Positions 5,815-37,900 of a DNA stretch of 64,000 nucleotides are shown here, piece after piece. Below the pieces are notes generated by a model. It was given only the letters and a program-made list of their open reading frames with translations, made no database searches and was not told where the DNA came from. Each line of letters begins with the position of its first letter. The stretch's first letter is position 1. Source of the DNA: a virus. Location of the stretch: positions 1-64,000 of the IMG/VR virus record IMGVR_UViG_3300005337_000003; one strand, 5' to 3'. A program made the translations under genes and the position numbers.

Positions 5815-6633
5815 ATGTTAAACGATACATTAAATATGGTCTACGAGAACCGTTCGGATATTTTTTATAATCTATCTAAATATCCGGACGGTCAGCAACA
5901 GGTGGAACTGTTTCAGAAGTGCAATCCCGTAGTTACCATAAAGGCACGTCTTAATAACTTTAACGACCTGGAGAAAATAATCTGCGCTACCGCTTCTCTG
6001 CGTAATGCAGGTGCCAGGAGAATCACTTTATTTGTTCCTTATTTTTTAGGATCTAGGAGCGACCGCAAGTTCAACCCTTTTTCCAACAATTACCTGAAGG
6101 ACATTATAGGGCCAATAATTAATATGCAAAAATTTGATGCTGTCATTACTGCCGATCCGCACTCGCATGTTTTAGAGGCCTGTATAGATAAATTGAGTGT
6201 GGTAGATACGTCTTATCTACTTAGGTATGCACTGCACGATACAGGTGATGCGTCTACATACCTGGTAGCTCCAGATGCAGGAGCTGTGTCCAGAATTAAA
6301 AAAGCAGTTGAGGATTTGGTAATACCTAACGAAATTATATTTTGCTCTAAACACAGATTGCCGAGTGGGGACATTACCATAAAGCCAAACTCAGAACCTT
6401 CACGTGGCAGCAAGGTTTTTGTAGTAGATGATATATGTGATGGCGGAAAAACCTTCATAGAAGTAGCTAAGGCATTCAACAAACCTAAATCTCAGATGTT
6501 TTTAGTAGTAACGCATGGTATATTCTCTAAGGGATTTGAGGTATTACAAGAGTACTACCAGACAATCTATTGCACCAATAGTTACTCCGACATTTTCACC
6601 CAATCATCAGTTAAACAAATCAATATTTTTTAA
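5815..6633 (+). CDS. prs: Phosphoribosyl-pyrophosphate synthetase family protein
   Basis: A 272-residue member of the PRPP synthetase family, a little shorter than cellular enzymes of about 310. Conserved pieces: VPYFLGSRSDRKF at 74-86 (equivalent to the PYxxxxRQDR ATP-site motif), ADPHSH at 113-118 (the DxH catalytic/metal site) and VFVVDDICDGGKTF at 201-214 (the PRPP-binding loop). It is first in a three-gene set with a HAD protein and a NAMPT homologue, so its product most likely feeds NAD+ synthesis. In the NARP1 phage pathway a Prs homologue instead pyrophosphorylates ADP-ribose; the sequence alone does not decide between these. Confidence 0.85.
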   Translation: MLNDTLNMVYENRSDIFYNLSKYPDGQQQVELFQKCNPVVTIKARLNNFNDLEKIICATASLRNAGARRITLFVPYFLGSRSDRKFNPFSNNYLKDIIGPIINMQKFDAVITADPHSHVLEACIDKLSVVDTSYLLRYALHDTGDASTYLVAPDAGAVSRIKKAVEDLVIPNEIIFCSKHRLPSGDITIKPNSEPSRGSKVFVVDDICDGGKTFIEVAKAFNKPKSQMFLVVTHGIFSKGFEVLQEYYQTIYCTNSYSDIFTQSSVKQINIF

Positions 6634-18240: not shown

Positions 18241-21200
18241 TTAATGATCGCTCATTTGAGCATTCCGGATCGCAATCACCGGATCCAGGTTTGATGAGCT
18301 GAGCCCTAATATCTTACCCAGGTGATTCCACAACTTTAAACTGTCTTCGTCTTGCCACCTGTAGGCGCCAATCCGCTTTTGATAACGGGCTTTTTCATTA
18401 CCGGTAGTCATATACCAAAGATCATTAATTACATCCGAGCCGGAAGATAAAGTTGGGCCGAATACGACAGCCTTTATATCAAGCATGTCTTTGTAGTTGC
18501 CGAGTCCTAATCCGGGCCATGGCAAAAACTGATCATTCTCTGTCTTAAACGCGAGGAGTTGATAGAGCGCATGATTTGACACCCAGCCTCCAAAGGAGAA
18601 CGGCCTGCCCTTATCGTCGATTGTTATACCCGGGATCTGAAGAGCATCTGACTTAGCTTTTAGCTTCTTGAAACGGTCCTTGTCCTCCGGGTCAAAACCA
18701 AAAAGGTATGGGATCAGTAATGAGTAGATAAGCATCAGCGTACCAAGTTCCGTCATGACACGCATAAATGCAGCTTTTTCTTCAGCCTTCATATACGGCA
18801 GATTCTTGCCTCCGTTGCGAATGCTATCCCACAGCAGGTTGGCAAATGTAATGTACCAGCCCTGTTTTGTATTGCTCAGCGAGTAATCATACCGGTTCAC
18901 CGCGAACCTGTTCACCAGCATGCTGGTCAGAAAGCGGCGAAAAAAGCTGATATACCTAAAGGCTAAATAGCGGTCTGCCTCCGGCCTGAATTCCCGAGAC
19001 ATAGCACCGTTCAAGTTGTCAGATACCCTCTGAAACTCCAGGCGCTTCTCAATGAATTTCTTACCAACGACCTGGTTACCATCCTTATCATAGGTAATGC
19101 CCCATTCGGCAGGTACTGATGCTTTTGTCTGGATCTTACCATCCTTATTGATCTCCCAGGCATCCTTATACATGATGTTTGATCCATCGGACAAGAGAAT
19201 ACGTTGGGTGCGTAGCATACCGTATAATACCTGGATATTGGATTGCAGCTGCGTGGTGCGGCGGAAATCATTCATGCGACCCAGTATTCCCCAGGTATAA
19301 TCTTTTTGCACCGTCCTGGTGAGAGATTCGCCGTAACTATGGGCAAAACGGTCCCGCTCAGGGTCGAATATTTCCACCATCTGGAAGCCTAGTGATTTAG
19401 GCTCTGACTTGTAGATCTCTGTCATTATCTCAAATGTCACCTGGGAGGCATCATACTCGGCAGCGATAAAGTCCTTCCAGCGCATATGCTTGCCTGCAGA
19501 GGATTCGATCATCCCCTGAAACTTGGCCGACACAGCATTCTTAATCGCAGACGGAATATTAAGATTCAAGAAAGCGCCGGAAGCTGATTTGAACAGCAAG
19601 TTAGAGAAGTTCTGAATAGCCGGATTATCCGAGCCCCAGCCCTTATTCTCCACACCCTCCAGCATCCGTTCCACCAGGTTGTTCACGGCCTTGGCCCTCA
19701 TGTACTGGTCTTTCCTGCGGTTAGGATTAACGATCGTGTTATTCTTGAGCATGCGCTGGTAAAGCGGGGAATTGCGTTCATTGTTGAGTACCTGCTGGGT
19801 AGCACGGGCAACCGGGCTGATCTTGTGTAAAGTTCTGCTGCGCTCAGCTGAGTATGAATACCTAAGCATCGTATAGATCGCATCCGTTGACACCTCATCG
19901 ACAGGTATATCACTCAAGCCGGATATAGGAATACCTGAAGTATCGTCATCAAACATATCGACCGTGATCAGCTGCTTTGTGTCCTCGAAATTAAATCCAT
20001 GATCCCAGGAATCCCTAGCTTTCTGCCAGAAGGTCTTGGCCTTGTAGATCAGACGCTTCAGCAAGTTTCCTGATTGTAGCTTTTCGACCCCCCTTTTTTC
20101 GTACCGTGGCATATCCATCCAGAGCTTCTGACGGTCGGGTAAACCTACCTGATTTTCCACATGCAGCTGCTTCATTTTCTCAAGTAACTTAAAGGTGGAC
20201 GGATCAGACTGCTTTAGCCTTTCGTAGTCCTTATTGATGTAGCGGTCATCCGGTGCGCCTTGGGCTGCGGTGCGAGGTAACCAACGGCCCCGGTTATCGG
20301 CATTAACCCCAACCTCCTGCTTTACCCGGTAGGAGTCCTTGAGTAGCTTCTTGTAGTAACGCATGGAAGGAACCGCCTTGATGGGTACCGCATTACCATT
20401 TAAGTCTTTTACCGAGGAGTGCTCATAATGCTTATCCTGCAGGGGACGGATCACACTCCAGGCAGCCGTCCGGCGCCAGGTAGTATAATCCTCCGCTGTT
20501 TCATAGGAGAAGCTGTTTTTAGATGTGTGATTGCGTATGAACCAATCCTCAAAATCAGGACTAGCTCTCATTAATTGCTGAATATCAATATCGTTAATAA
20601 CCGTAAGATCCTCTGCTTCCAATTCGTATTTGTTGAATATACTGTAGACAACCGTAGGGTCCATAGCTGCCAGCAGATCGTTGAATGTATCCACATAGGC
20701 GTCAGTCGGCAGTTTATACTGGAGCTCGTCCAGCTCGTTGAATAGTGAGAATAGCTCCGCCCGTTCCACACTATCCAGCCCCATCGATCGCTGTTTATCA
20801 AATAACCTGGAAAGTCGTAGTTGTTCGTCGTTAGTTAGACCTGAACGGGCATTCTTAGCTAGTAACGTATGCATCTCATCGGATTCCTGTTTAGTGAGCC
20901 CTGAGAGGTTATTTAGCTGTTCCCGGGCTGCTGATAGCCGTTCCTCGGCATCGTGGATACGTTGCTGCTTTTCCGGAGTCATTTCGGTGCCCTGGGGTTG
21001 GCCTGATTCATCCCGGCTGGCCTTTAGTAGATCCTGGATCAACTTGGAATCTTCCTCTACCTTTTCTGTTAATTTGCCCTGGTTAGGAATACGTTTCATG
21101 AGCTCCGCGATATCCTCATAGATCTCTTTACGCTCCTGCCAGAACTCATCTGTTACCTTGATACGCGTGTTCTTATCCAGCCAGCGATCCATTAATTCCT

Positions 21201-24200
21201 GGAAGCGGGGGTCTCCTGCTTTTTTACCTTCGTCGAGCAGTTTCTGTTCATAAGCCGAATAGGCAGCCTGGAAAGCCCCAGGAATTTCCAGGGATTCATA
21301 CATATCGCGGCTGGCCTCCTGGTATTGCTGGATGCGCTCCGCGATATCGAATTCACGGCCAATTTTTGGCTGGCCCACAGCGTCGTATAAAGAGGACAAC
21401 TGTCTTAGTTCCCGCTGGATGGCCTCAGCTTGCTCTATTGCTTCCAACACATCTTCCGAAGATGCTGCAGCTATCTGACCGCTGACCTGGTTAAGCCGGT
21501 CGTATACGTCATTCATGGCCATACGGGCCTCTTTGCCTATCTCGTCCTTTTTGAAAAGATCCTGGGCTTTATAAAACTCTTCTGTGAATTCAGTGTGAAA
21601 GTATTTACGCCTATGCTGCTCCCATTCGGACTGGGTATCGGCCAGGGTTTGTTTATCCTGTAATGATCCTGTCTCGTGGTATTTTAGGGATGCCTGCCGG
21701 ATCTTGCTTAAGTATTGAGCACGAGCCAGATCAGCCCCCTGGAATTGGTTTAGGAATCTCCAGACCTTTTTCTCAGTCAATTCGCCGGTATTCTCATCCA
21801 CCACACCAACAGTCTCGATAAAACCTAGGCGTTCCCCGGATTCAGCTGGCTTATTCATATTGATATCAGCGTCGTCCAGCAAGGGCTTAAGCTGGATGGC
21901 CATTTCATTGTATCGTGCCTGGGCCTTTACTTCCATTTTGGAATACTCCTGCAACATATAAGTAGCCAATCCCCCCACTACAGGATCAGGGTTATAGGCA
22001 TAGCTTTCCAGGAATGCACCAGCCATATTCACATCCTTTAGTTTACCCTGTAATGCCTGGGATAGTTTCTCAGGTGTAAGCTTTTCCTCAGCATATTCCT
22101 TCTCAGCCTCCGCTATGACTTTGGCTGAGGCCTTCTTGGCTTTCAGCTCATTGATCCGGGATTGCCATTTCTGATCGATATTTTCGGCAGTGCCTTTGAT
22201 GGTGCTCCAGAGAGCCTTATGTGTAGCTTTCTCGTAAAATTTATCGAGCAAACTCTCGGTACGACGGATATTATCATTTATGGAGCTTATTGCCTTGATA
22301 TTTTTTACACCATTGGCTTCCAGCGTCTCATAAGCCTGATTAACAAAACCTCCCCAATAATTCATTACCTTCTGGAAATATAAAGCCTTCTGCACATTAT
22401 CAGGATCATTAATATCCTTCAATATGTTCTGCATTGCCTCGTGGATCTGTTGTGTCATATTATCAACAGTTCCCAGGCTATTAACAGCAGCCACTACACG
22501 TTGACGTGTCAGCTCCACTTCATCCTCTAAATCCTTAGTATGTTCAAGCAAAAGTGTCTGGTAGGAAGATAGGTTGGATTTTATTGTTTCCAAGGCCCCG
22601 GTTTTTAGGCGATTTTTGAGTATATCTGCCAGTTCTCCGAGGTCGGGCCGATGAGATACATTATAAAGGCCCTTGGCTGCTTTTTTATAGAAATCATTAA
22701 CTAGGTCTTCTATTTCCTTCGCATTCGCGTTCTGGGCTACAAATCCTCTTAAAGAACGATCGTAATCTTCCTTGTATGTGACCATTTCCTTGTCGCTCAT
22801 TATCTCTGGATCCAGTTGGAATACTCCCCCTTCTTTTAATATATCACTTAGCTGCTCTAAGGTAGTGGACGGATTTATAGTCTCAGCTTTGATACCTGAG
22901 CCAAATACTTTCCTTAATACTTTACGGATCGCATACAGCAGGTTATCGATAAATTTCCTAAAGGCGTCAGTAGATTCAAGGCCTTGATTGTTTAGATCCT
23001 GGATGGCCGTTAGGCCCCTTACAAGCGCTTCTTCCTTGAAGAGGTCAGAGCTTTCATCCAGGTTCGGGTAGAGTTGCCTCATGTCTTCCAGAATCTTAGC
23101 GCCTTCCTGGGTGGTAGTTAGTTTGGCGTACAGATTATCAAATAATTCACGGTTCTGTTTTGAGATAGCCCGTAGCAGGGGGTGTACAAATTCGTGTAGT
23201 ACGTCATCAGGTGTTATGGCGCTGCCGACAAAATAGACCGAATCCTTGTAGAAGAAGGCGCTCTGTCCATTCCAGGGATTTGGACTGCCTTTAGTAATAT
23301 CTGCAGCCTCTTCGGGCGTGATTGTCTGGTAGTCTACTCCCAGCTGTGTCTTTAAAGCATCCGCATATTTACGGATCATTTCCTGGGAGTAATTCTTCCT
23401 TGTATCTTCTGCAGATAGATAGGTATCTGATCTGCCCAGGTTTTTGAAAGCTATAAATTCTGTTGCGTGTTTGGGATCTATTAATACCTCATTCCAGTCG
23501 TTACCATGCTCATCTGTGGTTTTTGTGGGTTTGAAGCCTTGTTTTTTCAGGATATTGGTTATGGTTTCGTCGTAGAATTTATAAATAGGCCTTAAAGCAG
23601 CAAATCCTTCAGTTTCTGCTCTCTTTAATTCTAGTTTAATTTGGTTTATTTCATTAAGTACATTTTTTTTCTCTTGTTGTAAAACTAATTGAGCTTCTTC
23701 CTTTGTAGGTTTTATAGCTATAAGCTCATCTGTATAACCTAATCTATAAACTCTCCATTCTTTAATGAAATTTCCATTTTCATCTAGTGCGGGTTCATCT
23801 GCTAAGAATCCTTCTTTTGTACCTTCTTTTATATCAAATACTACATTATTTAAATTATTAAGTCGATCTTCTTTATGTCTTCTAAATTCTTCTAATGTGG
23901 TATGTCCTTCAATTTTACTAATAGTGTCTCCCAATGGAAATAGAACCTTCTCATAACCCTTCTTAGCAGAATCTTGCATAATAGATTTAATAAAGAATGA
24001 TACCCAGTTATTGTCTTTGTTTAGAAGTTGAAGAAAATTATTTTTCTCATGATTAATTTCTGGACCTAATCCTTTCCTTTCATTTGTTAAAAAATCAATA
24101 TTTCTACCTTTCTGAAATAGATCAGATTGTACTTCAAGTATTCTACGACTCTTAGAATTAGATATTAATTCATTTTTTCCTACAAATCTATTCTCATCAG

Positions 24201-25284
24201 GATAGTGAGCTTGTTCATCACTTCTAAACCATCCCATGCCCTCAGAAGTAGAAAATCCGGCATGCCCCTGAATACTCGGAGTAATTCCGGGAATCTTAAT
24301 TTCATTCTCAGTGTAGTTAATTCCCCCAAGCACCGTCATGTTAGCATAGTTGTCACTATTCACCTCTATAGAGCTTATGTTGAATTCTTCTCTGGCCTGT
24401 GCTATTGCATCATCTAATTTCATACCCCCCTCTCCTAGCTCTTCCACTCGCTTTTGATAGCTAATCATTACTCCAAGTCCATGGGCCTCGGGACCTGGCA
24501 GGCTTTTTTTGACTGTATTTATCTCAATAGTATAACTATAGTCAGCTAGTAAGCTGGTAAGCAAGTTCTCCCTATTGTATGGATTTTCCACCTGCAGGCT
24601 TTTGAGGATTTCCACTTGTTCTTTGGGAATTTGCAGATCCTGATTAAGCTTGTTCCAGAACACATCATCCCGCCACTGGTTCTTGTCTGCTTTTTTGAAC
24701 CAGTCTATTGCCTGCTGGGAGGCTAATATAAATGAAGCCTTCAGCCCGTATTTAATAGCTTTTTCGTTTTTATATGCAACAAACTCCGGACTTATACTGG
24801 TAGGCGAAGGTAGGCGATTAGCATCATAATTAGCTGCTTGTTGACGTTCCTGCTTGGCAGCTGTGTCCAGCCTACCTTTCTCCTGCCATACCTTCCAGGT
24901 AAAATTATCTGACTGGCCTACCTGCTTCCTTTCAAAGCGCAGCACCTTATTGATATCTTTCCTGGCGTACTCGTTGTTTTTTATCCCGATCTGCTTCATG
25001 ATGATCTGCGCCTGGGCATCGGATATCTGGGATTTAGGGACAGCGCGGCCTAGTTCTTTGAAGAATTGTGCTTTAGTAATTGGTATAATCCTGGAAGCTA
25101 AATCAGAACTAGTAATAACCACAGGGCCTATCAGACCGTAAAATTCATCAGGCGTAGGAAAACGGTCAGTTATCCCCTTATGAGTTTGCCATACACCTAT
25201 CTTGGCAGCTACAATGGCAGGATGCAAATCAAACTGATCTGCCAGTTTAATTACCTCGAAGTGGTTTATATTTATACAATTCAT
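18241..25284 (-). CDS. Giant virion (cargo) protein with zincin motif (2347 aa)
   Basis: The last gene of the structural block, 2347 residues. The N-terminus (HPAIVAAKIGVWQ, FPTPDEFYGLIGP) is followed by a distinct low-GC segment at about residues 270-575 containing GHAGFSTSEGMGWFRSDE and RRILEVQSDLFQKG, a module seen in large polyvalent phage proteins. HEFVH at 697-701 in a SAITPDDVLHEFVHPLL context is a zincin-type metal site, with E751/E752 as possible third ligand. Long coiled-coil regions follow, and a hydrophobic helix LGTLMLIYSLLIPYLFGF lies near residue 2180. Such proteins are packed in crAss-like particles and ejected with the DNA. A role in peptidoglycan or membrane passage is inference. 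Confidence 0.75.
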   Translation of the reverse strand: MNCININHFEVIKLADQFDLHPAIVAAKIGVWQTHKGITDRFPTPDEFYGLIGPVVITSSDLASRIIPITKAQFFKELGRAVPKSQISDAQAQIIMKQIGIKNNEYARKDINKVLRFERKQVGQSDNFTWKVWQEKGRLDTAAKQERQQAANYDANRLPSPTSISPEFVAYKNEKAIKYGLKASFILASQQAIDWFKKADKNQWRDDVFWNKLNQDLQIPKEQVEILKSLQVENPYNRENLLTSLLADYSYTIEINTVKKSLPGPEAHGLGVMISYQKRVEELGEGGMKLDDAIAQAREEFNISSIEVNSDNYANMTVLGGINYTENEIKIPGITPSIQGHAGFSTSEGMGWFRSDEQAHYPDENRFVGKNELISNSKSRRILEVQSDLFQKGRNIDFLTNERKGLGPEINHEKNNFLQLLNKDNNWVSFFIKSIMQDSAKKGYEKVLFPLGDTISKIEGHTTLEEFRRHKEDRLNNLNNVVFDIKEGTKEGFLADEPALDENGNFIKEWRVYRLGYTDELIAIKPTKEEAQLVLQQEKKNVLNEINQIKLELKRAETEGFAALRPIYKFYDETITNILKKQGFKPTKTTDEHGNDWNEVLIDPKHATEFIAFKNLGRSDTYLSAEDTRKNYSQEMIRKYADALKTQLGVDYQTITPEEAADITKGSPNPWNGQSAFFYKDSVYFVGSAITPDDVLHEFVHPLLRAISKQNRELFDNLYAKLTTTQEGAKILEDMRQLYPNLDESSDLFKEEALVRGLTAIQDLNNQGLESTDAFRKFIDNLLYAIRKVLRKVFGSGIKAETINPSTTLEQLSDILKEGGVFQLDPEIMSDKEMVTYKEDYDRSLRGFVAQNANAKEIEDLVNDFYKKAAKGLYNVSHRPDLGELADILKNRLKTGALETIKSNLSSYQTLLLEHTKDLEDEVELTRQRVVAAVNSLGTVDNMTQQIHEAMQNILKDINDPDNVQKALYFQKVMNYWGGFVNQAYETLEANGVKNIKAISSINDNIRRTESLLDKFYEKATHKALWSTIKGTAENIDQKWQSRINELKAKKASAKVIAEAEKEYAEEKLTPEKLSQALQGKLKDVNMAGAFLESYAYNPDPVVGGLATYMLQEYSKMEVKAQARYNEMAIQLKPLLDDADINMNKPAESGERLGFIETVGVVDENTGELTEKKVWRFLNQFQGADLARAQYLSKIRQASLKYHETGSLQDKQTLADTQSEWEQHRRKYFHTEFTEEFYKAQDLFKKDEIGKEARMAMNDVYDRLNQVSGQIAAASSEDVLEAIEQAEAIQRELRQLSSLYDAVGQPKIGREFDIAERIQQYQEASRDMYESLEIPGAFQAAYSAYEQKLLDEGKKAGDPRFQELMDRWLDKNTRIKVTDEFWQERKEIYEDIAELMKRIPNQGKLTEKVEEDSKLIQDLLKASRDESGQPQGTEMTPEKQQRIHDAEERLSAAREQLNNLSGLTKQESDEMHTLLAKNARSGLTNDEQLRLSRLFDKQRSMGLDSVERAELFSLFNELDELQYKLPTDAYVDTFNDLLAAMDPTVVYSIFNKYELEAEDLTVINDIDIQQLMRASPDFEDWFIRNHTSKNSFSYETAEDYTTWRRTAAWSVIRPLQDKHYEHSSVKDLNGNAVPIKAVPSMRYYKKLLKDSYRVKQEVGVNADNRGRWLPRTAAQGAPDDRYINKDYERLKQSDPSTFKLLEKMKQLHVENQVGLPDRQKLWMDMPRYEKRGVEKLQSGNLLKRLIYKAKTFWQKARDSWDHGFNFEDTKQLITVDMFDDDTSGIPISGLSDIPVDEVSTDAIYTMLRYSYSAERSRTLHKISPVARATQQVLNNERNSPLYQRMLKNNTIVNPNRRKDQYMRAKAVNNLVERMLEGVENKGWGSDNPAIQNFSNLLFKSASGAFLNLNIPSAIKNAVSAKFQGMIESSAGKHMRWKDFIAAEYDASQVTFEIMTEIYKSEPKSLGFQMVEIFDPERDRFAHSYGESLTRTVQKDYTWGILGRMNDFRRTTQLQSNIQVLYGMLRTQRILLSDGSNIMYKDAWEINKDGKIQTKASVPAEWGITYDKDGNQVVGKKFIEKRLEFQRVSDNLNGAMSREFRPEADRYLAFRYISFFRRFLTSMLVNRFAVNRYDYSLSNTKQGWYITFANLLWDSIRNGGKNLPYMKAEEKAAFMRVMTELGTLMLIYSLLIPYLFGFDPEDKDRFKKLKAKSDALQIPGITIDDKGRPFSFGGWVSNHALYQLLAFKTENDQFLPWPGLGLGNYKDMLDIKAVVFGPTLSSGSDVINDLWYMTTGNEKARYQKRIGAYRWQDEDSLKLWNHLGKILGLSSSNLDPVIAIRNAQMSDH

Positions 25285-25637
25285 TTTAAAAATCTCAACT
25301 TGTACTCAACACCATAAATAAACTCAAGGATATTATCAATCAGTTGCTGAATATATCCTTCTGTTTGGGTGGATCTATATTCCTTTATAGCAATGCATTG
25401 TTTACGTAAATATCCCACCATGTCAATGCCTTCCTGTATCGGTATACTTTTATAGCCTTTGATTATGTCATACTGGCCTTGATATGCTTCACAAAAAGCA
25501 TCTCGAAGTTCTGGCATACCTTTATATAGCTCATCGAGAGCTGCATGCTGAGCAAATGAAGTTGTTTGGAGGTGCGCAATATGCCCCATTACTTCTATTT
25601 CGAATAATGCGCTTACGAATTCACTGGTGCTTTTCAT
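25281..25637 (-). CDS. Ferritin/Dps-like small helical protein (DUF5856-like)
   Basis: A 118-residue all-helical protein. It starts MKSTSEFVSALFEIEVMGHI, then AHLQTTSFAQHAALDELYKG and CEAYQGQYDIIKGY. The pattern of a helix with spaced His/Glu residues (E14, H19, H22) followed by SFAQHAAL and an E-x2-Q helix resembles the four-helix ferritin-like phage family DUF5856. Ligands for a di-iron site cannot be confirmed. It lies between two giant virion genes: one base after the polymerase stop and overlapping the next start (ATGA). It may be a chaperone or structural partner of one of them. Confidence 0.6.
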   Translation of the reverse strand: MKSTSEFVSALFEIEVMGHIAHLQTTSFAQHAALDELYKGMPELRDAFCEAYQGQYDIIKGYKSIPIQEGIDMVGYLRKQCIAIKEYRSTQTEGYIQQLIDNILEFIYGVEYKLRFLK

Positions 25638-25638
25638 G

Positions 25639-28600
25639 TTATAAACAGTCTATTAGTTGTTTAGTTTCTTCCTCGGAAAGAGAGTCGAATTGTTCTTTGG
25701 TTAGGTCCGGATATTTTTGAAGAATGGCAGTGTGGTGCCTTTCCCATAAGTCAACCTCATTGTCGGCTGAATCTGAATATTCCAATTCGGGTAATTCCAA
25801 CTGTTGATCTTCCGTGCCCAATTTTTCCCTATCTATCCTATCATTTATCATATAATCCTTGAACCGGTTACGGTCCGAAATATCTGAATTAACGACCAGG
25901 AACTTACCGGCAAATTCCGCCAGGTATTTAGCGTCAATAGTTTTACCCAACCTTTGCACATCCTCCCCTATCAACCTCTGGATCCTTTGTACCGGGATCA
26001 CCCGGGCAAATGAGAAAGGATTACGGGTATTAGGCCCTGATTGCATATACAAGTATAGTGGTAATTTTTTAAAGAATGTGGCAATATAATCCGCATCTTT
26101 CTGATCAATGCCTGAAATTTTCAACAATTCATTAGAATTAGCCAACTGCTTGAGGTTCTGGTGGAATCTATCTACCTCGGCTGAAGATAACTTGGTTGTT
26201 GATAGCATTAAGTTAGTTAGTCCAGACGAAGTAGACTGCTTAATATTACCCAGTATAGAAAACTGGGTCTTCAACTGAGGGTATTTAAACAACAACGCTT
26301 CATATTTAGCAGCCACATTCCTTGGCGCTTTAAGTAATTGATAGGGACTGAATATATCAAACAAGGCCTGCTCATTCAGCCATTCCTTATAACTCTTCTC
26401 ACGCATCCGGATATCAAAATCCACATCGGTTTCGTCAGATAACCTAATATTATCAGTGGCCTTATTCTGCGACAGGATATCCTGGTAATCGAAATTATCA
26501 ATTATCGAATCCATCGGATACATGCCTTTGAGTTCATCCCGTTTATCAACAAAGTAAGCACGTTCATTATCGCTGGAGAATTCAACGCCCTCAGCATCCT
26601 CTACTGAAGCAATAGCCTTGTCATAACCTCGTAACTTTTGTTGGAAGATATAATAGATCAGGTCGCTCTTGAAAACCCGGGCGGTCTGCACCGGATCCCC
26701 ACCAAATAGCCCTTTAGCTTCGCTATCCTGCATAAAGTTAAAGAGAAACTTATTCAGCTCTGGATTGTTAAGCAGTGTCATCAATCTTCCGAAGACATCC
26801 GTTACGAATTTGTGCACGTAGAATGGCCCTATTGCTGAGTTATTAAGGATTGATTTAACGTATTTGTCAGAAATTAACGTGTTTTGCTCGGCATCCTCTA
26901 TTTCCTGGGTCTTAGCTGCGAATTCAAACACAGTCTGTGCTTTGTTAGTGTCTACATTAAAGGCCCGCTGCAATTTATCCAATCCTGCCACTATATTCTC
27001 AATTTCCAGGAAATGTAGGAATACAGCCAGGTCCGGATTACGGACAACAGCTTTCTTAATAGGCTTATCAAAGTCTTTAACTCCTTCAGGATCCTGCCTG
27101 TATTCGTCCAGTGCAGCATTCAGCGCCTGTGATAGCGGTAACTTACCTCCCTTATCCGGATGGGTAAGCAACGTGAACTTACGGTGCAGGAATTTAACCT
27201 CTTCGGGGGATCCGGCATTTTGGAATAATCCCAGAACCCGCCGTTTGAATTCCTCGGGATCAATGTCGTTTTTGATATCGTCCTGGAGCGCACGAGCACC
27301 TCCAAAGCTCCTAAGAGGCTCGGCAGCTTTAGTTTCACCAGAAGCAACCTGATTACCCATTAAGTCAGTAATATCGGTAATGCCTTCGGTGTAGATCAAC
27401 GCCAGCTCTGCCAGATCACCCGGCTTTGGCTTAATGATTCCGAATCTGCGCAGTATATTACGCTGGGCTGGGCGTCGATAATTCCTGTAATTGCCCGCAG
27501 CTCCAAATATTCCACCTACAGGGCTTTTTTGCAGTCGTTGCTGTTTAACATATTCCTGGATGATCGGGTGCCTGAGAAAGGTTACGGCCTTTTTCAGGGG
27601 GACTCCGGATCTAACCAGAAACAGCAAAACCGGGGCTAGTTCCTTATTGCCCTGTATATAGCTGATCCAGTCATCCTTCTCCACATCAACCCAGCCATTG
27701 ATCAGCTGGCTGACCACCTCCGATATGGAGTTGCCATCAGTGTCTTTAAGTCCGGAAAGCGATATACCTCCAGGTGTGGAATTGTGAGGCATAAGTATGG
27801 TAGCACGACCTGCATCAAAGCTTGGTGCCAATTCCAGGCCGATCGCTTGCGACACGGCATTGAATGTATTATTAATAGCACCAATCCCAAGGGCATCCTT
27901 ACCCACAGAGTTAGCTTGCTGCACCTCGATACTACGCAAGGGCTCATACATTCGGGTGCCCTGGTTATTATGCTTCTGATCCCCGCGTATTCCCTCAGCG
28001 ATGGGCTTGGCTATATCCACGTCATTAGGTCGTACCAGGTTTTCAAAATTGTCAGGCCTTTCCATCATGGCCCGCATGGTCTGGATAATGTTATTCTCCA
28101 GCACGGGACTGCCATTCAGTTCCGAATAATACTCATCAAAAGGCTTTTTGCCCTGATCGCGCAATATGTCACGGATCTCATCATCAGTATAATCCAGATC
28201 CCAGTTAGCCCCAAATATATCGCCTAATAACTTATCGGCGGCAGCATCTTTCTTCCACTGTAATTTACCCTGGCTATTGATTAATTCGTCCTTCTGGATA
28301 GCTGTTTTTATAATCTCATCATGCAGCTGCTTGGCTTTTTTCTTAGAAATAGCTGAGGCGTATGTAGGCTCACCATCTACCATACGGATATGAGGCATAA
28401 GCATCGGCAGTTTGTCATAATCAAAGTCACCTCCGGTCTTGGCTGTGATCTCTGGCGGGGCCAGCAGTATATTACCTACATATTCAGGCAAAAACTCATA
28501 AACCTCTACAAAATCGGTGGAGTTAGGTCCCTGGGTGGGGACACGGGCACCCACCATCGTTACCATCTGCCGGTGATTATTCTCATCCAGCCATGCCTCA

Positions 28601-31600
28601 TCCTTGAGCAATATATTCAAGGCATCAAGCCGGGACATTTTCTGGCTTTTTGATTTCTCAATAACGGAAGGGAGTTGCATGAGTTGTTTAAAGTCTCCCT
28701 GGATCGCTATCTTGATCTTGGCTGCGGTTATCTTGCCGTTACGGATATGATAGGTAGGCAGATCGTTAGTGCCATACCTGGCTACCTGTTCGGCAGTGGG
28801 TTTATCGAACTTACGAGGCTCTGAATAAGCGAAGGCTTTATTTTCGAAAAGAGTGGAGGGAACAAGCACAAATTGTTCACCCTTAACCTTTGGCGTTACC
28901 AGGCGCTTATTGGCCAGTGCCACTATGGTCTTCTCAATTATCTCAGCAGAAGGTGACACATCCAACGGATTTTTTATGGTGTCCCGGCGGATGGTTTGGA
29001 TATAGTTCCATTCATGCTCCCCCACATCGGAACGTTGCAGCTCATCAGATATCAAAGCCAATAACTTATCCAGCTTAATATCCTTGGTTGATCCCCCATC
29101 CTTAACTCCCAATTCGTAAAGCAATTCCTGCTTTTTATAAGCCACAAACTTATCCATGGCGCCTATATAGGCACGGTAATTTTTATAGTTGTCTGAAGCC
29201 TTAAGCTTCTGCTCTTCCGTCAGACTATTCCAATCCGATCCTTTATAATCCACTGGTATCCCCTGATCGAACATGCCAACAGATACCAATTTACGCAGCT
29301 GGGAGATCAGCGTTACCTTTCCCTTATATTTAGGTGAGGCTTTCACCTGGTACTTTAAAAAGTCAGTATGGATTAAATTAGGCACAAACGGCTTGTCTGA
29401 TAAAGTACGGGTTTGCACATCGCTATATAACTGCTGGGGCCCTGGCCACTCGGATATAGTAGATATCTTGGAGCCGGATACATAGGTGAGGTAATCGATA
29501 CCCTCCGACATCATCTTATGATGTAGCGCGTCCATATTTTCGGAAAGTCCAGGTATAATGGGCATCATGGCGAACTTGTGCAGTGCAGTCATCGGCACCG
29601 GCTGGCCCAGGAGCGGGCCAGCATACCCCATCTTGAATACCGGTGGGAACTGCCCCTTATAGGCAGGCTTATCTCCCCGGACAAAAGACTGGAAAAGCCC
29701 TTCCTGCTCATCGGACCATTCACCCAGGCCTTTTGCCAGGATCCTATAGGTATCAAAAGCCACTAAACAAGAAGCGTCCGTCTCATTGACCTTAGAGTAC
29801 GCTTTAGCAGTAGAATCGGCACTAGTGGCTTTAGTATATTGATCAAGATAGGCCGATACCGACTTTACATCGTCCACGACGGCAGTCCTGAAGATGCTAT
29901 TAAATGGCTCCGGTTTTAGACCTTGTGAAGTTGCCAGGGGTTTGCCAACCTTGTTATTTATGTAGTTCACGAAAGTTTGATCAGAGGGCATTACATCCCC
30001 TGGGGAAGCCATCGAGGCATTACGCTTGAAGAAATCACTGTACTGGGCAACATCCCCATAGATAACTATCATCTCCTCAAAGTGGTGGATCCAGTTATTG
30101 GCAACAAAGGAAGATATAACTGCGGCCCTGGCTTGTTCTGGCGTTATAGTTTTACCGTCGAGGGTTGCCAGTCCCTGCAGCTGATTGATCAGCGTGGGAC
30201 TTATAAAGCTGCCACCAAGCTCTGCGCTGCGGTTATTAACCTGCTGTACCAGACCAGAGAAGTATTCCACAATTTCCCTGGTTATAATGTCTTCCAGTTT
30301 GGGATTTATTTTACCTTCCAGTAGTGCCTGTTTTGTTTGATCGCTTAGAACCCCTGCAAAGGAATGGAACTGTGTTGCCCTTTCCAGGTACTTAAAATCC
30401 GTCTGTTTTAATTCTCCGGAATCCAGAAGCTTCTTAACGTAATTGATCCGGTCCAGTTCACCTGACAGGTAGTTGCGCAGGATTTCCACGTATTTGAATA
30501 CGCCCGACACATAACCGTTGGATTCTGGAATGAATGATTCGGTATCAATATAAAGCCGTGGATTCTTTGCACCAGTCTTATAATTACTCAGCGTTACAGA
30601 AAAAGATGCACTCTTGCCCGCATGTCGGGTAAGCTCGGGCGTAAATCCCATGACCTGCTGGTGAATATCAGAGATCAGGCGTGTCAGCTCGTCAGAGCCT
30701 GCCTGTGATAGGCCTTGTGTAAATCTGCCATTGATTGAAGGGATGGTCCCTGATAAGTTATCAACCTGCATGGTATTACCCGGATACCTCGGGCCATCAG
30801 GCCTGTTCCTATCATATAGAGCATTGATCCAAATTGATCTATCGGTGTAATAATTATAGGGTCGTCCCGGTTGATCCGGTGTGGGACTAAAGTGAGCTGT
30901 CTGCGGCTGGCTTAATAAGTTATTAAAGTTACCGGTACGATTAAATAGCGACACGATCTGTGTGATGGAACTTTGCTGATTATACTCGGATTGCTGCTCC
31001 CCTTCAGCATTCGCTACCATGAAATCCGAATACCTGCCGCTGTATTGACTCTCAAGCTGCAGTATCTTACCATAGTTTCCTTTAGGCCCTACCTGGCCGG
31101 TAACTCCCATCTCGGAGTTGTGTCGTGTAAATTGGCCTATACCCCGGATTATAAAGTTTCGCTCCTGTAGGTTACGGATATTATCGTAAATACCACTCAA
31201 CCGGATGTTTCCGGATTTTACTTCTTTTTCCAGCTGACTTTTGATCACTGGCAGATTGCTCAACGACATTCCTATATCCTGAAGGAACTCAAAAGGGTTG
31301 GCGTTTACTTCCTGTATGGTTTGGTATTTATCCAATAATGACTTTGCATCCAGGTAATTCCCGTGGATATCGTTACGCATGAATGGGCCTCCTGATTTGA
31401 AAAACTCATTCTTCCAGGTACGGTCTATTTTCTTGATCTCGGATATCGCGTTACCTATCCGGATATCATAGTTCGACTCACCGGTATTGTCATCGCGCTG
31501 CTCAGCAATCTCTGTCTGACGGAGCAGGATCCGGTATTTATTGGCACTGTGGTAGAATTTAAGCCACAATCCAGACTCCTTATCGGTCTGACCCTCATAC

Positions 31601-34600
31601 GATAGCGGTCCCAGCTTTCTCAACAGCTGGTCAATCGGCGGGTAGTTGATGCGTTCAGATTTGAGCCTTTGGTACATGTCCTCAAGACCTGTGCTGTTCT
31701 GAACGGTCTGCATGATATATGCCCAAGATTGCCTAAAATCCACCAGCGTGGGAAAGCCCAGCGCATTAGGCTGCACCTGCCGGTTAACATCTGGCTGATA
31801 TAAGCTGCTGACAATGGCTTTGATCTCCTCGGATACCAGGTCGTAAATAATGGTATCATTAGACTTATTTTCAAAGAAATTTTTACCTGCCATCTCCCGG
31901 GCCTCATGCTCCACATCATCAGATACCTCTGACTGGAATTGTGAGACAGCGTCCTTAATACGACTACTGATCAACTGTGATCGCTGCAGATGATACCCAA
32001 TAACGCCTTTATCTTTAAGGGAGAGTTCCGGGTGGGTCGCATCCCCAAAGTTATCGACAGCATATTGCAGCGTCTGCAGCGTCTTCTGTAAATCAGCACT
32101 TGGATTAACTTTAAACTGCTCCTGTACATCTGATAGCCTCTCTTCGAACTTTAGCTGGGCGTACCGATACAAACTGGCAACACCTTTCAGCTTAGACAAT
32201 ATCACCGCAGTGTAGGAAGATGTATATTGGGCCTGCAGGTTTTCCAACTCTTCTTTTTCTTCCGGTGTCAGATTTGGCTTCTGCTCAAGATCTCGTTTAC
32301 GGTTACCTGCCTGTAGATTGGCCGCATTCATCTCATCCAAGGCTTCGGAGAACAACGCATCCACACTGTCTGATATTAAGTCGGAGGTTTCAAAGCTCAG
32401 CTCTATTCCGCCCTTTACCGGCTGCATGGCTTTATTGAGCGTATTGAATTCAGCATTTTCAGCTGAGAAGCTATAGGTGGCCAAATCCCCTACTCGCAAT
32501 CTCTGGTAAAGTTCAGCAACTTTTTGGTTAACCCGCTCGTCTATCACGGATTCGCGAACCGTTGCCGATCCGAATAATTCTTTTAAAAAGTTCAGGATGC
32601 GGCGGAATAAAGTATTCCGTTTTGGTGCCTTATCCATCACTAACTTTCCACCGGATAACATATAAGCCCTGAAATCCTCTGCCAGATATTCCTCCAACTG
32701 CTTATTAGTAGCGTCGGAGAATTTAACGGTATTGCCCTGGAAGTCAATGAATGTTCCGGACTTAGTTCTCACCTCACGATATAAGCCCTCCCTATCTTCC
32801 CGAGGTAATAGTCCCTGAGTGAACCCGTGCCATGCCTCATGGTATAAATCTGACGCATCGGCGCCCTTGTATAATTTTACACAGTTAATGGCCCAATTGG
32901 CAATTACATTCGAATCTTCCGCGTTGACTTTTTCGAACATTGCCTGGAATGGAAAATGTTTTGAGAGTGGGCTTTGACTGTACCATTTCTCAGCCTCTTC
33001 GATCTGCGCCTCCATGGCCTTGATGCTCCCTTGGCCTGCGATCTTGTTCCATTTGTCCGGATTTTGTCCCTTAAGGGATGCCAGGTAATCCTTGGCAGAC
33101 ATTTTTGGTTTATCATATTCAGGCCTGATAAAACCGTTTTCATCAAACAGTGTGGGTTGTGACACCTCAACCTTAGGTTTATCAATAATATCCACATTAG
33201 CGGCTGGGCTGATGGTGAATTCCAGATTAGAACCAGCGCTCTGCAACCCTCCTTGGGAATCTACAGCATATGGTACAGTAAAATTATCTTGGATAAAACC
33301 AAAATACTTCCTGGTGGTTGTCGTTAAGGTGTTGCCGTTAATCTCGAAATCCTCATAAGAGTTACTATTAAACAGTGTCTTATTAATGCTTAACTTGATA
33401 GTATCTATCCTGTAATATTTTACACTTCCGTCAGGTTGAGGAAACTCATACACATCATCGAACTGAGCAGTTTCCAGGTTTGTCACTTTGTTGCTACGCC
33501 CCCCATACATCGCCTGGGCCTTAGCCGGTGTTAATTCCTCCGCAGGAATACGGCGGGTAAACATGGTACGCAATGCCTGACCCATCTCCTCCTTGCTGGC
33601 GTAACTCTGTGGTTGGCCCATCCGGTAGACCACAAGTTCACCACCAACAACCCGTATGTCAAGCGCTTTTGGATCAGTATATAAAAACTGACGGAGTAAC
33701 TTAAGCTTATTCTCTGGTGTAACTGCAAACGTCTGGCCTCCCCTGGTGAATGTAAGGTCAGTAGTGATAAGAGATACTAGTTTATTCACCATCTCGGGGG
33801 TAAACTCTTTCCGGTTAACAGATACAGACATCTCAGTGCCTGGAAGATCGAAATAGTAGACGTTGGGCCTTTGGTTCCTGGCCGGGATGCCCCGGTAAAA
33901 ATTAATAGGCGCTACGATCTTGAGGGCTGATACTGGTGAGGCTCCCTTCTTTATCGGAGGTACGTAGCGGATTTGGCCTCCTTTTATATCAACCTGCAGG
34001 GATTTCCCTGTCTGGTGGATATACTTGCGGGCGTCGGCCAATAGTTTTAATTTGCGGGTAGTGACGGCCAGTGCCTGCTCATACGTCATGCCTTGAGATT
34101 CCAGCTGTTTGAGCTGTCGCAGATCGGTTTCGAGCAAGGGCCTGCCTTCCACAGGATTGCGGAAGTTGTAGTGTATGAGCGATCCTTCGTCAGATTTTAC
34201 CAAATCAGCTGTAAATCGGATAGGTTTTCCTTCCGGGTCCGTTACCAGCAGCACAATGCCTTTATTGGCATTTTCCAATTTGGTGGGATCAGCTTGTATT
34301 TCAGCCTGGGTATCCGGGTAAAAATCCTCCACTTTAAAGTCTTTGGTTAGCGACATGGTAAGCCTTACCGGTACACCGTTGATAATGCTTGAGCCGTCCG
34401 GCTGCACGTTTTTTATTATCTGTGTCTTAGCGTCAGCATAGATTTTCATGCCGGGCCGGATCTGGCCGGTATTGATATCAGTATCCATCACTAAGTCCGA
34501 GAGGATCAACGCGGGGTTAGCCTTAAACTCCGGGACTTTATCTACCGGGATTTCTTGCTGTGCTGGAGGATTGATTTGCGAATCCTTAATAATATTCTCC

Positions 34601-34938
34601 TTAACAACGTTGGCCTCTTGAGTCTGTGTATTGAAGCCGTTAACGTACTCTTGCACCTTATCGAAATTTTCAAAGGCAGCTTCCTTTCCGGAAACGACTG
34701 CGGCGGAAGAGGCAAGCTTGGAGAATACATCCCGGTTGATTCCCATCACGGCGCGGATGTTTGCAGGTAGCAGTCCAACATATGTCATTGCCAATACCGG
34801 ATCACCGGTCTTGGTGCGGATCAAATCATGGAACTTTCTGGCATAATCGTCAAACTGAAAATCTTTGGCCTTGTTAAGGTCGATAGCTACTTTGCCGAAA
34901 AGCAGTCGCTGCTGTTGGGGAGTTAATGTACAATTCAT
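25639..34938 (-). CDS. Crass-like virion RNA polymerase, giant single-chain (3099 aa)
   Basis: A 3099-residue protein. Residues 2132-2136 read RVPTQ and 2171-2176 read DFDYDK, giving a DxDxD metal-binding loop (D2171, D2173, D2175) in a TGGDFDYDKLP context. That is the signature of the double-psi-barrel RNA polymerase of crAss-like phages, related to eukaryotic RNAi polymerases and carried in the virion to transcribe early genes. Other parts: a zincin-like HEAWH at 700-704 with E754 as possible third ligand, and a J-domain-like HPDKGG at 2593-2598. It is longer than phi14:2 gp66 (about 2180). The ATG at 34938 overlaps the previous stop (ATGA); TTG at 34944 is less likely. Confidence 0.85.
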   Translation of the reverse strand: MNCTLTPQQQRLLFGKVAIDLNKAKDFQFDDYARKFHDLIRTKTGDPVLAMTYVGLLPANIRAVMGINRDVFSKLASSAAVVSGKEAAFENFDKVQEYVNGFNTQTQEANVVKENIIKDSQINPPAQQEIPVDKVPEFKANPALILSDLVMDTDINTGQIRPGMKIYADAKTQIIKNVQPDGSSIINGVPVRLTMSLTKDFKVEDFYPDTQAEIQADPTKLENANKGIVLLVTDPEGKPIRFTADLVKSDEGSLIHYNFRNPVEGRPLLETDLRQLKQLESQGMTYEQALAVTTRKLKLLADARKYIHQTGKSLQVDIKGGQIRYVPPIKKGASPVSALKIVAPINFYRGIPARNQRPNVYYFDLPGTEMSVSVNRKEFTPEMVNKLVSLITTDLTFTRGGQTFAVTPENKLKLLRQFLYTDPKALDIRVVGGELVVYRMGQPQSYASKEEMGQALRTMFTRRIPAEELTPAKAQAMYGGRSNKVTNLETAQFDDVYEFPQPDGSVKYYRIDTIKLSINKTLFNSNSYEDFEINGNTLTTTTRKYFGFIQDNFTVPYAVDSQGGLQSAGSNLEFTISPAANVDIIDKPKVEVSQPTLFDENGFIRPEYDKPKMSAKDYLASLKGQNPDKWNKIAGQGSIKAMEAQIEEAEKWYSQSPLSKHFPFQAMFEKVNAEDSNVIANWAINCVKLYKGADASDLYHEAWHGFTQGLLPREDREGLYREVRTKSGTFIDFQGNTVKFSDATNKQLEEYLAEDFRAYMLSGGKLVMDKAPKRNTLFRRILNFLKELFGSATVRESVIDERVNQKVAELYQRLRVGDLATYSFSAENAEFNTLNKAMQPVKGGIELSFETSDLISDSVDALFSEALDEMNAANLQAGNRKRDLEQKPNLTPEEKEELENLQAQYTSSYTAVILSKLKGVASLYRYAQLKFEERLSDVQEQFKVNPSADLQKTLQTLQYAVDNFGDATHPELSLKDKGVIGYHLQRSQLISSRIKDAVSQFQSEVSDDVEHEAREMAGKNFFENKSNDTIIYDLVSEEIKAIVSSLYQPDVNRQVQPNALGFPTLVDFRQSWAYIMQTVQNSTGLEDMYQRLKSERINYPPIDQLLRKLGPLSYEGQTDKESGLWLKFYHSANKYRILLRQTEIAEQRDDNTGESNYDIRIGNAISEIKKIDRTWKNEFFKSGGPFMRNDIHGNYLDAKSLLDKYQTIQEVNANPFEFLQDIGMSLSNLPVIKSQLEKEVKSGNIRLSGIYDNIRNLQERNFIIRGIGQFTRHNSEMGVTGQVGPKGNYGKILQLESQYSGRYSDFMVANAEGEQQSEYNQQSSITQIVSLFNRTGNFNNLLSQPQTAHFSPTPDQPGRPYNYYTDRSIWINALYDRNRPDGPRYPGNTMQVDNLSGTIPSINGRFTQGLSQAGSDELTRLISDIHQQVMGFTPELTRHAGKSASFSVTLSNYKTGAKNPRLYIDTESFIPESNGYVSGVFKYVEILRNYLSGELDRINYVKKLLDSGELKQTDFKYLERATQFHSFAGVLSDQTKQALLEGKINPKLEDIITREIVEYFSGLVQQVNNRSAELGGSFISPTLINQLQGLATLDGKTITPEQARAAVISSFVANNWIHHFEEMIVIYGDVAQYSDFFKRNASMASPGDVMPSDQTFVNYINNKVGKPLATSQGLKPEPFNSIFRTAVVDDVKSVSAYLDQYTKATSADSTAKAYSKVNETDASCLVAFDTYRILAKGLGEWSDEQEGLFQSFVRGDKPAYKGQFPPVFKMGYAGPLLGQPVPMTALHKFAMMPIIPGLSENMDALHHKMMSEGIDYLTYVSGSKISTISEWPGPQQLYSDVQTRTLSDKPFVPNLIHTDFLKYQVKASPKYKGKVTLISQLRKLVSVGMFDQGIPVDYKGSDWNSLTEEQKLKASDNYKNYRAYIGAMDKFVAYKKQELLYELGVKDGGSTKDIKLDKLLALISDELQRSDVGEHEWNYIQTIRRDTIKNPLDVSPSAEIIEKTIVALANKRLVTPKVKGEQFVLVPSTLFENKAFAYSEPRKFDKPTAEQVARYGTNDLPTYHIRNGKITAAKIKIAIQGDFKQLMQLPSVIEKSKSQKMSRLDALNILLKDEAWLDENNHRQMVTMVGARVPTQGPNSTDFVEVYEFLPEYVGNILLAPPEITAKTGGDFDYDKLPMLMPHIRMVDGEPTYASAISKKKAKQLHDEIIKTAIQKDELINSQGKLQWKKDAAADKLLGDIFGANWDLDYTDDEIRDILRDQGKKPFDEYYSELNGSPVLENNIIQTMRAMMERPDNFENLVRPNDVDIAKPIAEGIRGDQKHNNQGTRMYEPLRSIEVQQANSVGKDALGIGAINNTFNAVSQAIGLELAPSFDAGRATILMPHNSTPGGISLSGLKDTDGNSISEVVSQLINGWVDVEKDDWISYIQGNKELAPVLLFLVRSGVPLKKAVTFLRHPIIQEYVKQQRLQKSPVGGIFGAAGNYRNYRRPAQRNILRRFGIIKPKPGDLAELALIYTEGITDITDLMGNQVASGETKAAEPLRSFGGARALQDDIKNDIDPEEFKRRVLGLFQNAGSPEEVKFLHRKFTLLTHPDKGGKLPLSQALNAALDEYRQDPEGVKDFDKPIKKAVVRNPDLAVFLHFLEIENIVAGLDKLQRAFNVDTNKAQTVFEFAAKTQEIEDAEQNTLISDKYVKSILNNSAIGPFYVHKFVTDVFGRLMTLLNNPELNKFLFNFMQDSEAKGLFGGDPVQTARVFKSDLIYYIFQQKLRGYDKAIASVEDAEGVEFSSDNERAYFVDKRDELKGMYPMDSIIDNFDYQDILSQNKATDNIRLSDETDVDFDIRMREKSYKEWLNEQALFDIFSPYQLLKAPRNVAAKYEALLFKYPQLKTQFSILGNIKQSTSSGLTNLMLSTTKLSSAEVDRFHQNLKQLANSNELLKISGIDQKDADYIATFFKKLPLYLYMQSGPNTRNPFSFARVIPVQRIQRLIGEDVQRLGKTIDAKYLAEFAGKFLVVNSDISDRNRFKDYMINDRIDREKLGTEDQQLELPELEYSDSADNEVDLWERHHTAILQKYPDLTKEQFDSLSEEETKQLIDCL

Positions 34939-37900
34939 ACGCAACCTAGTGTTTCTTCGAACTCTTTCTCAAATTTCTCAGGATCAGCCAATGCCTCTTC
35001 CATTGTCTTCTCAAGCACCTGACGGCTACTATTAATGAAATTAGTCACCTGTTCACTACTCTGAGTTGCCAGTTCTTTTTCCTTATCTGTTGGCTGCGTA
35101 TCCTGTGCTGCTTCGGATTGTATACCCAAAACAGTATCCTTTAAGTCTTTTTCTTCCACGGTTATCTTGAGGTTTTTATTAAGGAGATCAATGGTTAATT
35201 TTTTACCTGTATTTTGCGACACCATACCTTTGTCATGCTCTTTGTTAGTCAGCTGCACTACAGTACCTACTGGCAGATTAGACATACTGATAACATTGTG
35301 AAATTCCTGACGACGCGCTTCCAGGCCTTTGAGTATTTTATTAGCGGTTAAATTCATCCGCTTACGGGTCCTGCGGTCAAACAGCCTAAACATGGTCTCA
35401 AATTCAGCTTTAAGCGCGTCCAGTTCGTCCAGGTTCTTAACACCAGGAATGCGCTCCAATACATCCTCAGCCTGGACATCCTCCTTGGTTTTACCTTGTT
35501 CCTGTGCAACTTCTGGCTGCTCGACTTGTTCTTCAGTAACTACCTCTTCCTCCGGCTTGGTAACATTGAGATAATTATCTACAATGTCTTTAAATTTTTG
35601 ATATCTCGGATCCCTGGCATCTATGGCTTGTTTGGCATTAATATCAAAAAAGCGCTCAGGCACAGCCTTGTCATTAATCAGCTTATCTACACTCTGCGGA
35701 GATAGTACAAATCCCCTATCATACAAAGTCTGTAAGATCGAATTGTCTTCAGTGGATTTCTGAGCTAATTCGATACCCTTCTTGATTATATCGCCTTTAG
35801 AATTATAAAGATCCGTAAATGCACTATTAAGTCTTTCATAATAATTTAAAAATCCTTGAGGATCAGCCAGCGTATTTACTGTTTCAGTTGTAATAACGTT
35901 CTCTATTCCCAACTCATGCAGATCCAGCAATTCATCAAATGATTTACGTAATTCCACATTAGACACGCTGGAAGATGGGTTGAGGGATTTAAGGTAGTTT
36001 GAGTATGATTTGAACAGTTTGTTTTGATCTGTCCGTTTCTGTTTGTCCAGAGATAGCGCCTTTTTTGCTTCCGGCGATAGTCCTTCCAGGTCCTGGTGCA
36101 GGTATAGACCTGTTAATGTGGTATTAAAATCCTCCAGGTGTTTTAAGGTATTTTTTTTGGCCTTAAGCTCCTCGCGGTTATTATTGTATTCCAGTACCTC
36201 GATCTCATCTTTTAGTAGACCTATTTCCTTTTGAAGCTGTATAGGGCTTGTCAGGGCATTAAAATAATTGGAAGGAATCTTATTGGTTCCGGCCTGGGCC
36301 AGCAGGCCGGAAGCGATGTTTTTGATCCTTGTTGCATTGTCCTCGACTTTGGCACTATCGAATATCGCCCTCGACTTGGCTTGTTCCCAGGCTGAATACC
36401 CTATGGCTTCCCGGGTATATTCCGGGGTATCCTTGTGGTACATTGTAGGACTGAAAGGGTTCTGTAGCCTGAGATTCCACTCCTCGTATTTTTGTTTGAC
36501 AGTCTCGGCCCGGGAGATCAGCGAATCGACCTTTGAAAGAATCTCCTGCCCGTCCCGACCGAATGTTTCCTTTATGGCCTCTGGCGTCATGCTTCGGATA
36601 TCGCGCAGTTTATCTAAGAACAGATCATAGGATCCGGTATCAAGAGCCAGTTTGGTATTGCTTGCCAAATTCTCAAATTCGTTATCCAACCACTTCTTCT
36701 TATCATTCTCATCAAGAGCTTCGTATTGGCCTTTTACCGCTTCAGCGCTGGTAGTGTAGTTGATATCGCGGGAGGAAAAGAATCTCAAAGGGTCTTTATA
36801 ATACTCATTAAGAGTTGCAAGGGTCTTCTGTGTATAGTCATTCTTGGTCTTACGATAGCCTGCTATTTTTTCAATACCTGCACTTACTGGTGATACCAAG
36901 CCCCCCATGAAAAATCCGGAGGCAAACGTTTCAAATCCCTTGCCGCTGAGCTGATCCACGGTGTTCTTGGCTAAGGCATCCCACATGCTGTCATTTGTAT
37001 ATTCTCCCCTACCGTGGTCTAGTCCGCTCCTGGTCTTGGAGCCGTATAAATTGGCATAGTAATCCACAGCGGTACCTGCCGTGATGTCCTGCAACGACTC
37101 CTGCAACCCTTCCGAAAGGTTGCCCCTGAAGTATTTAACAGCGCCTATTCCCCAGTTTTTAGGCTTGAACGCTGCGCGGGTCCGATTCATAAAAGTGGCC
37201 TCAACAAGCTTGTCCCCCTGCCTCATGAACCGGGCTCCATTACGCAGCGTATATTCTGTTGGTTGGGCAAATGATTTCAGCAACGGATCAAACGTCAGCT
37301 TATTGGTGAGGAATATCACCGGAATGTTAGCAATCATGTTAGATGTGCCGGCATCCTTGGCATTCTCTTTTAACGTAGCATATTCCTGGTCATCCGGATA
37401 ACGACCACCGTGCTCTTCACGGAACTTGGCCAGCATCCGCTCCTCGGCATCCCGCTGGGCTGCTGCTCCTTCCATACGGGCCTCCGATACGGTAAAATTG
37501 GCTGCCTGTATGTCTTGGTAAAGGGCGCCGGCTGTCTTATAGGAAGCCACGGCTGCATTCACACTGCCTGATTTGCTGGCCTGATATATATCCTTAGCGG
37601 CTTCAAACGTATTGGCCAGGGGCGTAATACTTTTAGCTGCATTCCAGAGCTTCTCTGCAGCTGAGTAATTATTGATTTCCTTCAGGGTGCCTAATGCCGC
37701 CTCGTATTTGCCCAGGTCTTTGGTGAACTTGCCTACTTGTAAAGCTCCCTGCGTACCCTTGAAGGCACTCCCTATTCCTGAGGTAAGATAATTTTCCAGC
37801 ACCAGTTCACCTATCATACCTACAGTGTAGCCTGAATTACTCATAAGGTTAGAGGCAAAACCGCTCACACCTCCCCTGGTTGATGAACCTACGGCATTAT

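Follow-up and report, generated by a model that had tools for sequence, protein, structure and literature searches.

Residues 2563-2617 of a crAss-like virion RNA polymerase very probably form a short J domain with three helices, of the kind seen in small J proteins of phages and mobile elements, that has been inserted into a flexible linker at the protein surface. The polymerase is encoded within a 64,000-nucleotide stretch of viral DNA (the window) that belongs to a 129,798-bp virus record, which elsewhere encodes members of the portal, terminase and major head protein families. The J domain and the virion RNA polymerase are each of known kinds, and their combination appears to be new: a search of the open-access literature (most subscription journals lie outside this scope) brought up no report of a J domain in virion RNA polymerases or in Crassvirales, and within that literature the statement of the initial annotation that no such fusion is known holds. 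This combination bears on an open question in crAss-like and N4-like phages: how do giant virion polymerases, unfolded for a narrow tail, become active in the host? A J domain in an injected polymerase may mean that the enzyme calls in the host folding machinery (Hsp70/DnaK).

The polymerase and its probable J domain

The sequence EEVKFLHRKFTLLTHPDKGGKLPLSQALNAALDEYR is encoded by the minus-strand ORF 25639-34944, which reads ...DPEEFKRRVLGLFQNAGSPEEVKFLHRKFTLLTHPDKGGKLPLSQALNAALDEYRQDPEG... around the J segment (Table 1). The likely true start of this ORF is the ATG at 34938, two codons in from the TTG, where the start codon and the stop codon of the preceding ORF overlap as ATGA. A profile built from the ORF and 38 relatives returned a single significant sequence from the PDB, the virion RNA polymerase of phi14:2 (6VR4, E = 2.2e-22), and the same structure ranked first (E = 1.2e-18) when residues 1901-3099, as modelled by AlphaFold2 (mean pLDDT 77), were compared with the PDB by fold. 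The metal loop aligns with Asp1361 of the phi14:2 protein, gp66; this DPBB metal loop of the form DFDxD, together with the homology to gp66, places the protein among the gp66-type virion RNA polymerases (vRNAPs). Thus the identity given in the initial annotation, a crAss-like virion-type RNA polymerase, is supported by both sequence and fold.

Like the window polymerase, gp66 is a single-chain, two-barrel RNA polymerase whose gene lies in a neighbourhood of giant virion proteins; it differs in length (2,180 aa versus 3,101), in having only a short equivalent of the linker (gp66 residues about 1685-1721) and in lacking a J domain. Mass spectrometry of virions has detected both gp66 and the RNA polymerase proteins of crAss001 (crAss001: PMC10172136). 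By homology to these proteins, the window polymerase would very probably also be packaged in the virion and injected into bacteria.

Table 1. Positions in the window of the polymerase ORF and of features of its linker and putative J domain.
Feature	Position	Strand	Residues	Remarks
crAss-like virion RNA polymerase ORF	25639..34944	-		3101 aa from TTG
Catalytic metal loop DFDYD	28414..28428	-	2173-2177	near-invariant column block GGDFDxDK
Variable linker	27019..27540	-	2469-2642	174 aa in the window; nearest relative, 91 aa; some others, with unrelated inserts, 158-364 aa
Inserted segment	27028..27267	-	about 2560-2639	missing in the nearest relative; flanked by anchors IKN (2557-2559) and FLHF (2642-2645)
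Probable J domain core	27094..27258	-	2563-2617	sequence matches and AlphaFold2 helices
J helix I	27220..27258	-	2563-2575	AlphaFold2 secondary structure, low confidence
J helix II, PEEVKFLHRKFTLLT	27163..27207	-	2580-2594	basic K/H/R/K at DnaK-contact positions; Tim14 alignment and AlphaFold2
HPDKGG loop	27145..27162	-	2595-2600	HPD = 2595-2597 (27154-27162)
J helix III, LSQALNAALDEYR	27094..27135	-	2604-2617	ungapped HPD spacing, as in mobile-element J proteins (QALN)

The least biased test of the J domain is a phmmer search of the J fragment against the PDB (177,635 distinct sequences, matches up to E = 10). All 13 matches are J-domain proteins, and the best is Tim14 (2guz_A, E = 5.8e-5), with 18 of 48 aligned residues identical (38%, counted by hand). 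In this alignment the basic helix II, EEVKFLHRKFTLLTHPDK, is paired with Tim14 KKLKEVHRKIMLANHPDK and shows the pattern of Lys and Arg residues that contact Hsp70. The HPD tripeptide occupies the loop between helices II and III, with AlphaFold2 helices on both sides, and helix III carries the (I/L)NxA signature as LNxA; no helix IV can be recognised. With an HMM built from Bacteroidales J domains, the window protein scored 23.8 bits; the highest score among 1,000 shuffles was 5.0, and that among RNA polymerase relatives was 7.4. These results bear out the J domain with HPDKGG proposed in the initial annotation, as well as its placement some 420 residues after the metal loop. A higher score (30.4 bits, gap-free) was obtained with an HMM of short mobile-element J proteins, but this value is inflated and partly circular, because searches with the window J domain had supplied the members of that HMM; the PDB and Pfam searches are free of this bias. 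A comparison by hhalign with one alignment was set aside because that alignment contained the query itself.

The Pfam DnaJ family (PF00226), suggested in the initial annotation as a check, matches at the J segment but stays below its gathering cut-off. A scan of the full-length ORF gave no match to this family, whereas the isolated region gave E = 0.006 (17.1 bits), with a range over fragments of E = 0.0025-0.006 (17-18 bits) and 18.3 bits for a 60-aa fragment. In a six-frame search of the whole ~130-kb record the only match fell exactly at the J segment (E = 9.3e-4). The cut-off of 27.8 bits, which scores of 17-18 bits do not reach, is a curation threshold rather than a biological defining feature. 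A bare Tim14 fragment (the aligned stretch with a few flanking residues added, an approximate sequence) scored 22.6 bits, also below it, and five free-standing mobile-element J proteins spanned 16.9-30.6 bits, with two of the five (16.9 and 17.8) falling short. We therefore attribute the low score to a short J domain that lacks helix IV, and not to an absence of homology.

Predicted structures agree with this assignment at the level of secondary structure only. Both the single-sequence AlphaFold2 model of residues 2537-2642 and a 1,199-residue alignment-based model contain helices at 2563-2575/2577, 2580-2594 and 2604-2617, and in both HPD sits in the loop that joins the second helix to the third. 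The helical hairpin with an HPD loop that the initial annotation had anticipated is thus present, but the J part of the models is of low confidence (pLDDT about 57-77), and a fold search with the stand-alone J model, itself of low pLDDT, gave an unconvincing J-fold match (Tim14 ranks first, at E = 3.1). Residues 2508-2554 and 2622-2633 have pLDDT <50 and the flanking polymerase 80-95; in the models, these two segments are consistent with a flexible tether.

Low model confidence, and the occurrence of the feature in one sequence only, would also fit a chance resemblance, in which a helical hairpin with an accidental HPDKGG has no homology to J domains. On sequence grounds this reading is already disfavoured, and we consider it very improbable: the homology statistics (PDB matches that are all J domains, the Pfam match, and the HMM score against shuffles) argue for true homology, as do the match to mobile-element J proteins, which runs without gaps and takes in QALN, and the presence of the J domain as a discrete insertion.

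Insertion into a variable linker

The linker that holds the J domain lies roughly 300-460 residues C-terminal to the metal loop. In the nearest relative that we found (L001/L003, 40% identical overall), the whole J domain is absent while the anchors on both sides are intact: between YTEGITD...ALQDDIKN and FLHFLEIENI there are ~80 residues in the window polymerase and ~11 in the relative. Nor was a J domain found in 162 relative loci with a detectable RNA polymerase, a set that includes some contigs counted twice and extends to homologues no closer than about 40-45% identity. The absence of HPD from close homologues, which the initial annotation had named as refuting the J domain, is thus formally observed. 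What is missing from the relatives, however, is the whole inserted domain and not just the tripeptide, a pattern better explained by recent insertion in one lineage than by a motif that arose by chance. When 77 virus records of relatives were searched in full for DnaJ, only weak matches came up, all without HPD; those in three relatives (L086-L088) were rejected as J domains for lack of HPD. With either the J fragment or the entire ORF as query, no J-bearing RNA polymerase turned up in viral contigs or phage records, nor in 396 genomes of the phylum Bacteroidota (a search without a positive control).

The same linker carries unrelated inserts in other lineages, measuring 158-193 aa in L032, L034, L035, L052, L053, L055, L056 and L063, and 336-364 aa in L068 and L072; Pfam gave no significant match on the linker inserts of other lineages. 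Sequence comparison thus indicates that the linker is an insertion-tolerant site, and that the J domain is a lineage-specific insertion, not conserved among relatives compared at no more than about 45% identity. One multiple alignment pairs J helix III with an ancestral helix of the linker; the reading that the insert comprises the whole J domain, helix III included, is favoured by the QALN match, which has no gaps, and by the pairwise alignment with the nearest relative. The GC content of the J segment (52%, versus 46% for the gene) is weakly compatible with recent capture.

Two of the other inserts deserve mention in their own right. The one in the linkers of 158-193 aa (e.g. L034:7972-8505) is apparently shared among its carriers and, by eye, possibly represents a beta-rich family. 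The two distant relatives with the longest linkers (L068:8263-9354, L072:8251-9258) have an insert of roughly 250 aa without a Pfam family.

The closest free J domains belong to small J proteins, encoded in Bacteroidales genomes and in viral contigs, that carry HPDKGG-x5-Q(E/A)(I/L)N, and by sequence similarity proteins of this type are the likely source of the insert. Small mobile-element and viral J proteins with HPDKGG...MQ(E/A)INAEY (L101, L102, L105, L107, L109, L111, L123, L125) share with the window domain the short spacing from HPD to helix III, a gap-free alignment and a QALN/QAIN helix III. They differ in that they are free-standing proteins of 160-250 aa with an N-terminal J domain and no polymerase fusion. 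No crAss-like RNA polymerase was detected in the J-bearing viral contigs L109-L125, many of which are fragments (a search without a positive control).

A domain captured in this way might no longer function, persisting as a passenger or structural spacer in the insertion-tolerant linker, with HPD kept since capture was recent. The diversity of inserts that the linker tolerates in relatives, the restriction of the J domain to one lineage, the sub-threshold Pfam score and the His at the position equivalent to Tyr25 are all in keeping with such a passenger. We nevertheless regard it as improbable, in that all mappable contact positions keep their character, including the His at the Tyr25 position, which is also His in the functional Tim14, and decay would be expected to strike HPD soonest.

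Possible recruitment of DnaK

J domains activate Hsp70 through HPD (PMC5773037), and from its sequence the window domain would probably do the same, its HPD loop and basic helix II contacting host DnaK and stimulating the DnaK ATPase. We found no phage-encoded Hsp70 in the virus record, so host DnaK would have to serve. The RNA polymerase proteins of crAss001 are virion cargo that must partially unfold for tail passage, and cytoplasmic refolding has been proposed for them (PMC10172136); for the N4 vRNAP, too, unfolding and refolding during ejection have been proposed (PMC12633501). The initial annotation suggested that the injected polymerase could recruit host DnaK, either to refold after tail passage or for particle assembly. 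In our main explanation, the packaged window polymerase, at least partly unfolded for passage through the tail, would arrive in the cytoplasm in a non-native state. Its own J domain would then load DnaK locally onto that same chain, where DnaK would help to pull the chain in and/or to refold active polymerase before early transcription. Action in cis on the emerging chain, the likeliest of the modes considered, is a tentative proposal, to which we give a little less than even weight; the explanation as a whole (a functional J domain in the linker, DnaK contact and cis action on the ejected polymerase) we hold to be about evenly balanced. Against it stand the sub-cut-off Pfam score, the low-confidence fold model and the unrecognisable helix IV. 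The lack of a J domain in the 162 relative loci also counts against it, indicating that crAss-like vRNAPs generally do without one.

It is instructive to compare the window domain with Tim14/Pam18 of the mitochondrial import motor (2guz), the closest solved J domain, which has the same HPDKGG and His at the Tyr25 position. Tim14/Pam18 activates Hsp70 at the exit of a protein channel, and Hsp70 binding helps to pull chains in (PMC5773037). It is a membrane protein acting on other chains, whereas the J domain of the window polymerase forms part of the very chain that would be translocated. By analogy, the J domain might serve as an import and refolding switch, entering the cytoplasm before the remainder of the chain has left the tail or envelope channel, with Hsp70 pulling in (by a ratchet or entropic pulling, as in the Tim14 motor) and refolding the ejection protein; we consider this extension unlikely.

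A functional J domain might instead act during virion assembly or late infection, with new polymerase recruiting DnaK and staying soluble or unfolded for packaging, rather than after ejection. The PDB, Pfam and HMM evidence serves this reading equally well, a large polypeptide (3.1 kaa) must be packaged, and J domains take part in the assembly of other viruses, as cited in PMC12619734. However, relatives without a J domain package their polymerase, and while the present data do not separate assembly timing from entry timing, we give an assembly role a rather low probability.

RB43 Rki (Perrody et al. 2012, PMC3486835) provides a phage precedent for a J domain with HPD, and helix IV is poorly conserved both in Rki and in the window domain. 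The Rki J domain binds E. coli DnaK and functions with it, and an H-to-Q change in HPD abolishes function (PMC3486835). Rki differs in being a free-standing early protein of 237 aa, with no virion polymerase, whose function has been shown, whereas that of the window J domain is putative. The counterpart of Rki in RB16 and KP15 is fused to a neighbour gene. Rki is required for phage growth, and its interference with DnaK is specific (PMC3486835); free-standing J proteins resembling the window domain are present in other viral contigs. The polymerase might accordingly be a delivery vehicle for a J domain acting in trans, which would redirect or inhibit host DnaK for take-over or anti-defence. 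We judge this quite improbable, as the few polymerase copies per virion would face abundant DnaK, and insertion into a polymerase, rather than a free early gene, would be an odd route to DnaK titration. An estimated ~6 RNA polymerase copies are present per crAss001 virion, and such a handful fits action in cis, as in our main explanation, better than titration of cellular DnaK.

Among other phages, the vRNAPs of N4 and P23-45 are also giant injected polymerases with extra domains (PMC12633501; PMC10770324), but no J domain has been reported in them, and the text of the N4 preprint (PMC12633501) makes no mention of chaperones or DnaK. If the J domain of the window polymerase is functional, host DnaK would be directly implicated in activation after tail passage, a role that could be tested by a single-residue change, H to Q, in a module of 55 residues that can be transplanted. 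A virion polymerase would then join the known uses of viral J domains, and the linker that follows the metal loop would stand out as a site where phages add functional modules to their polymerase.

The window also contains several other genes of note. A DUF5856 protein (25281-25637, minus strand; Pfam E = 1.4e-18) is encoded directly downstream of the polymerase and has a 4-base overlap with the next giant ORF. Large or giant late-side ORFs on the minus strand at 18241-25284, 41419-43329 and 45615-50642 (2347, 636 and 1675 aa) have no Pfam or PHROG match. On the plus strand, genes for ribose-phosphate pyrophosphokinase (5815-6633) and nicotinamide phosphoribosyltransferase (7077-8570) adjoin, a pair that possibly provides NAD+ salvage or reconstitution, as phages use against NAD-depleting defences.
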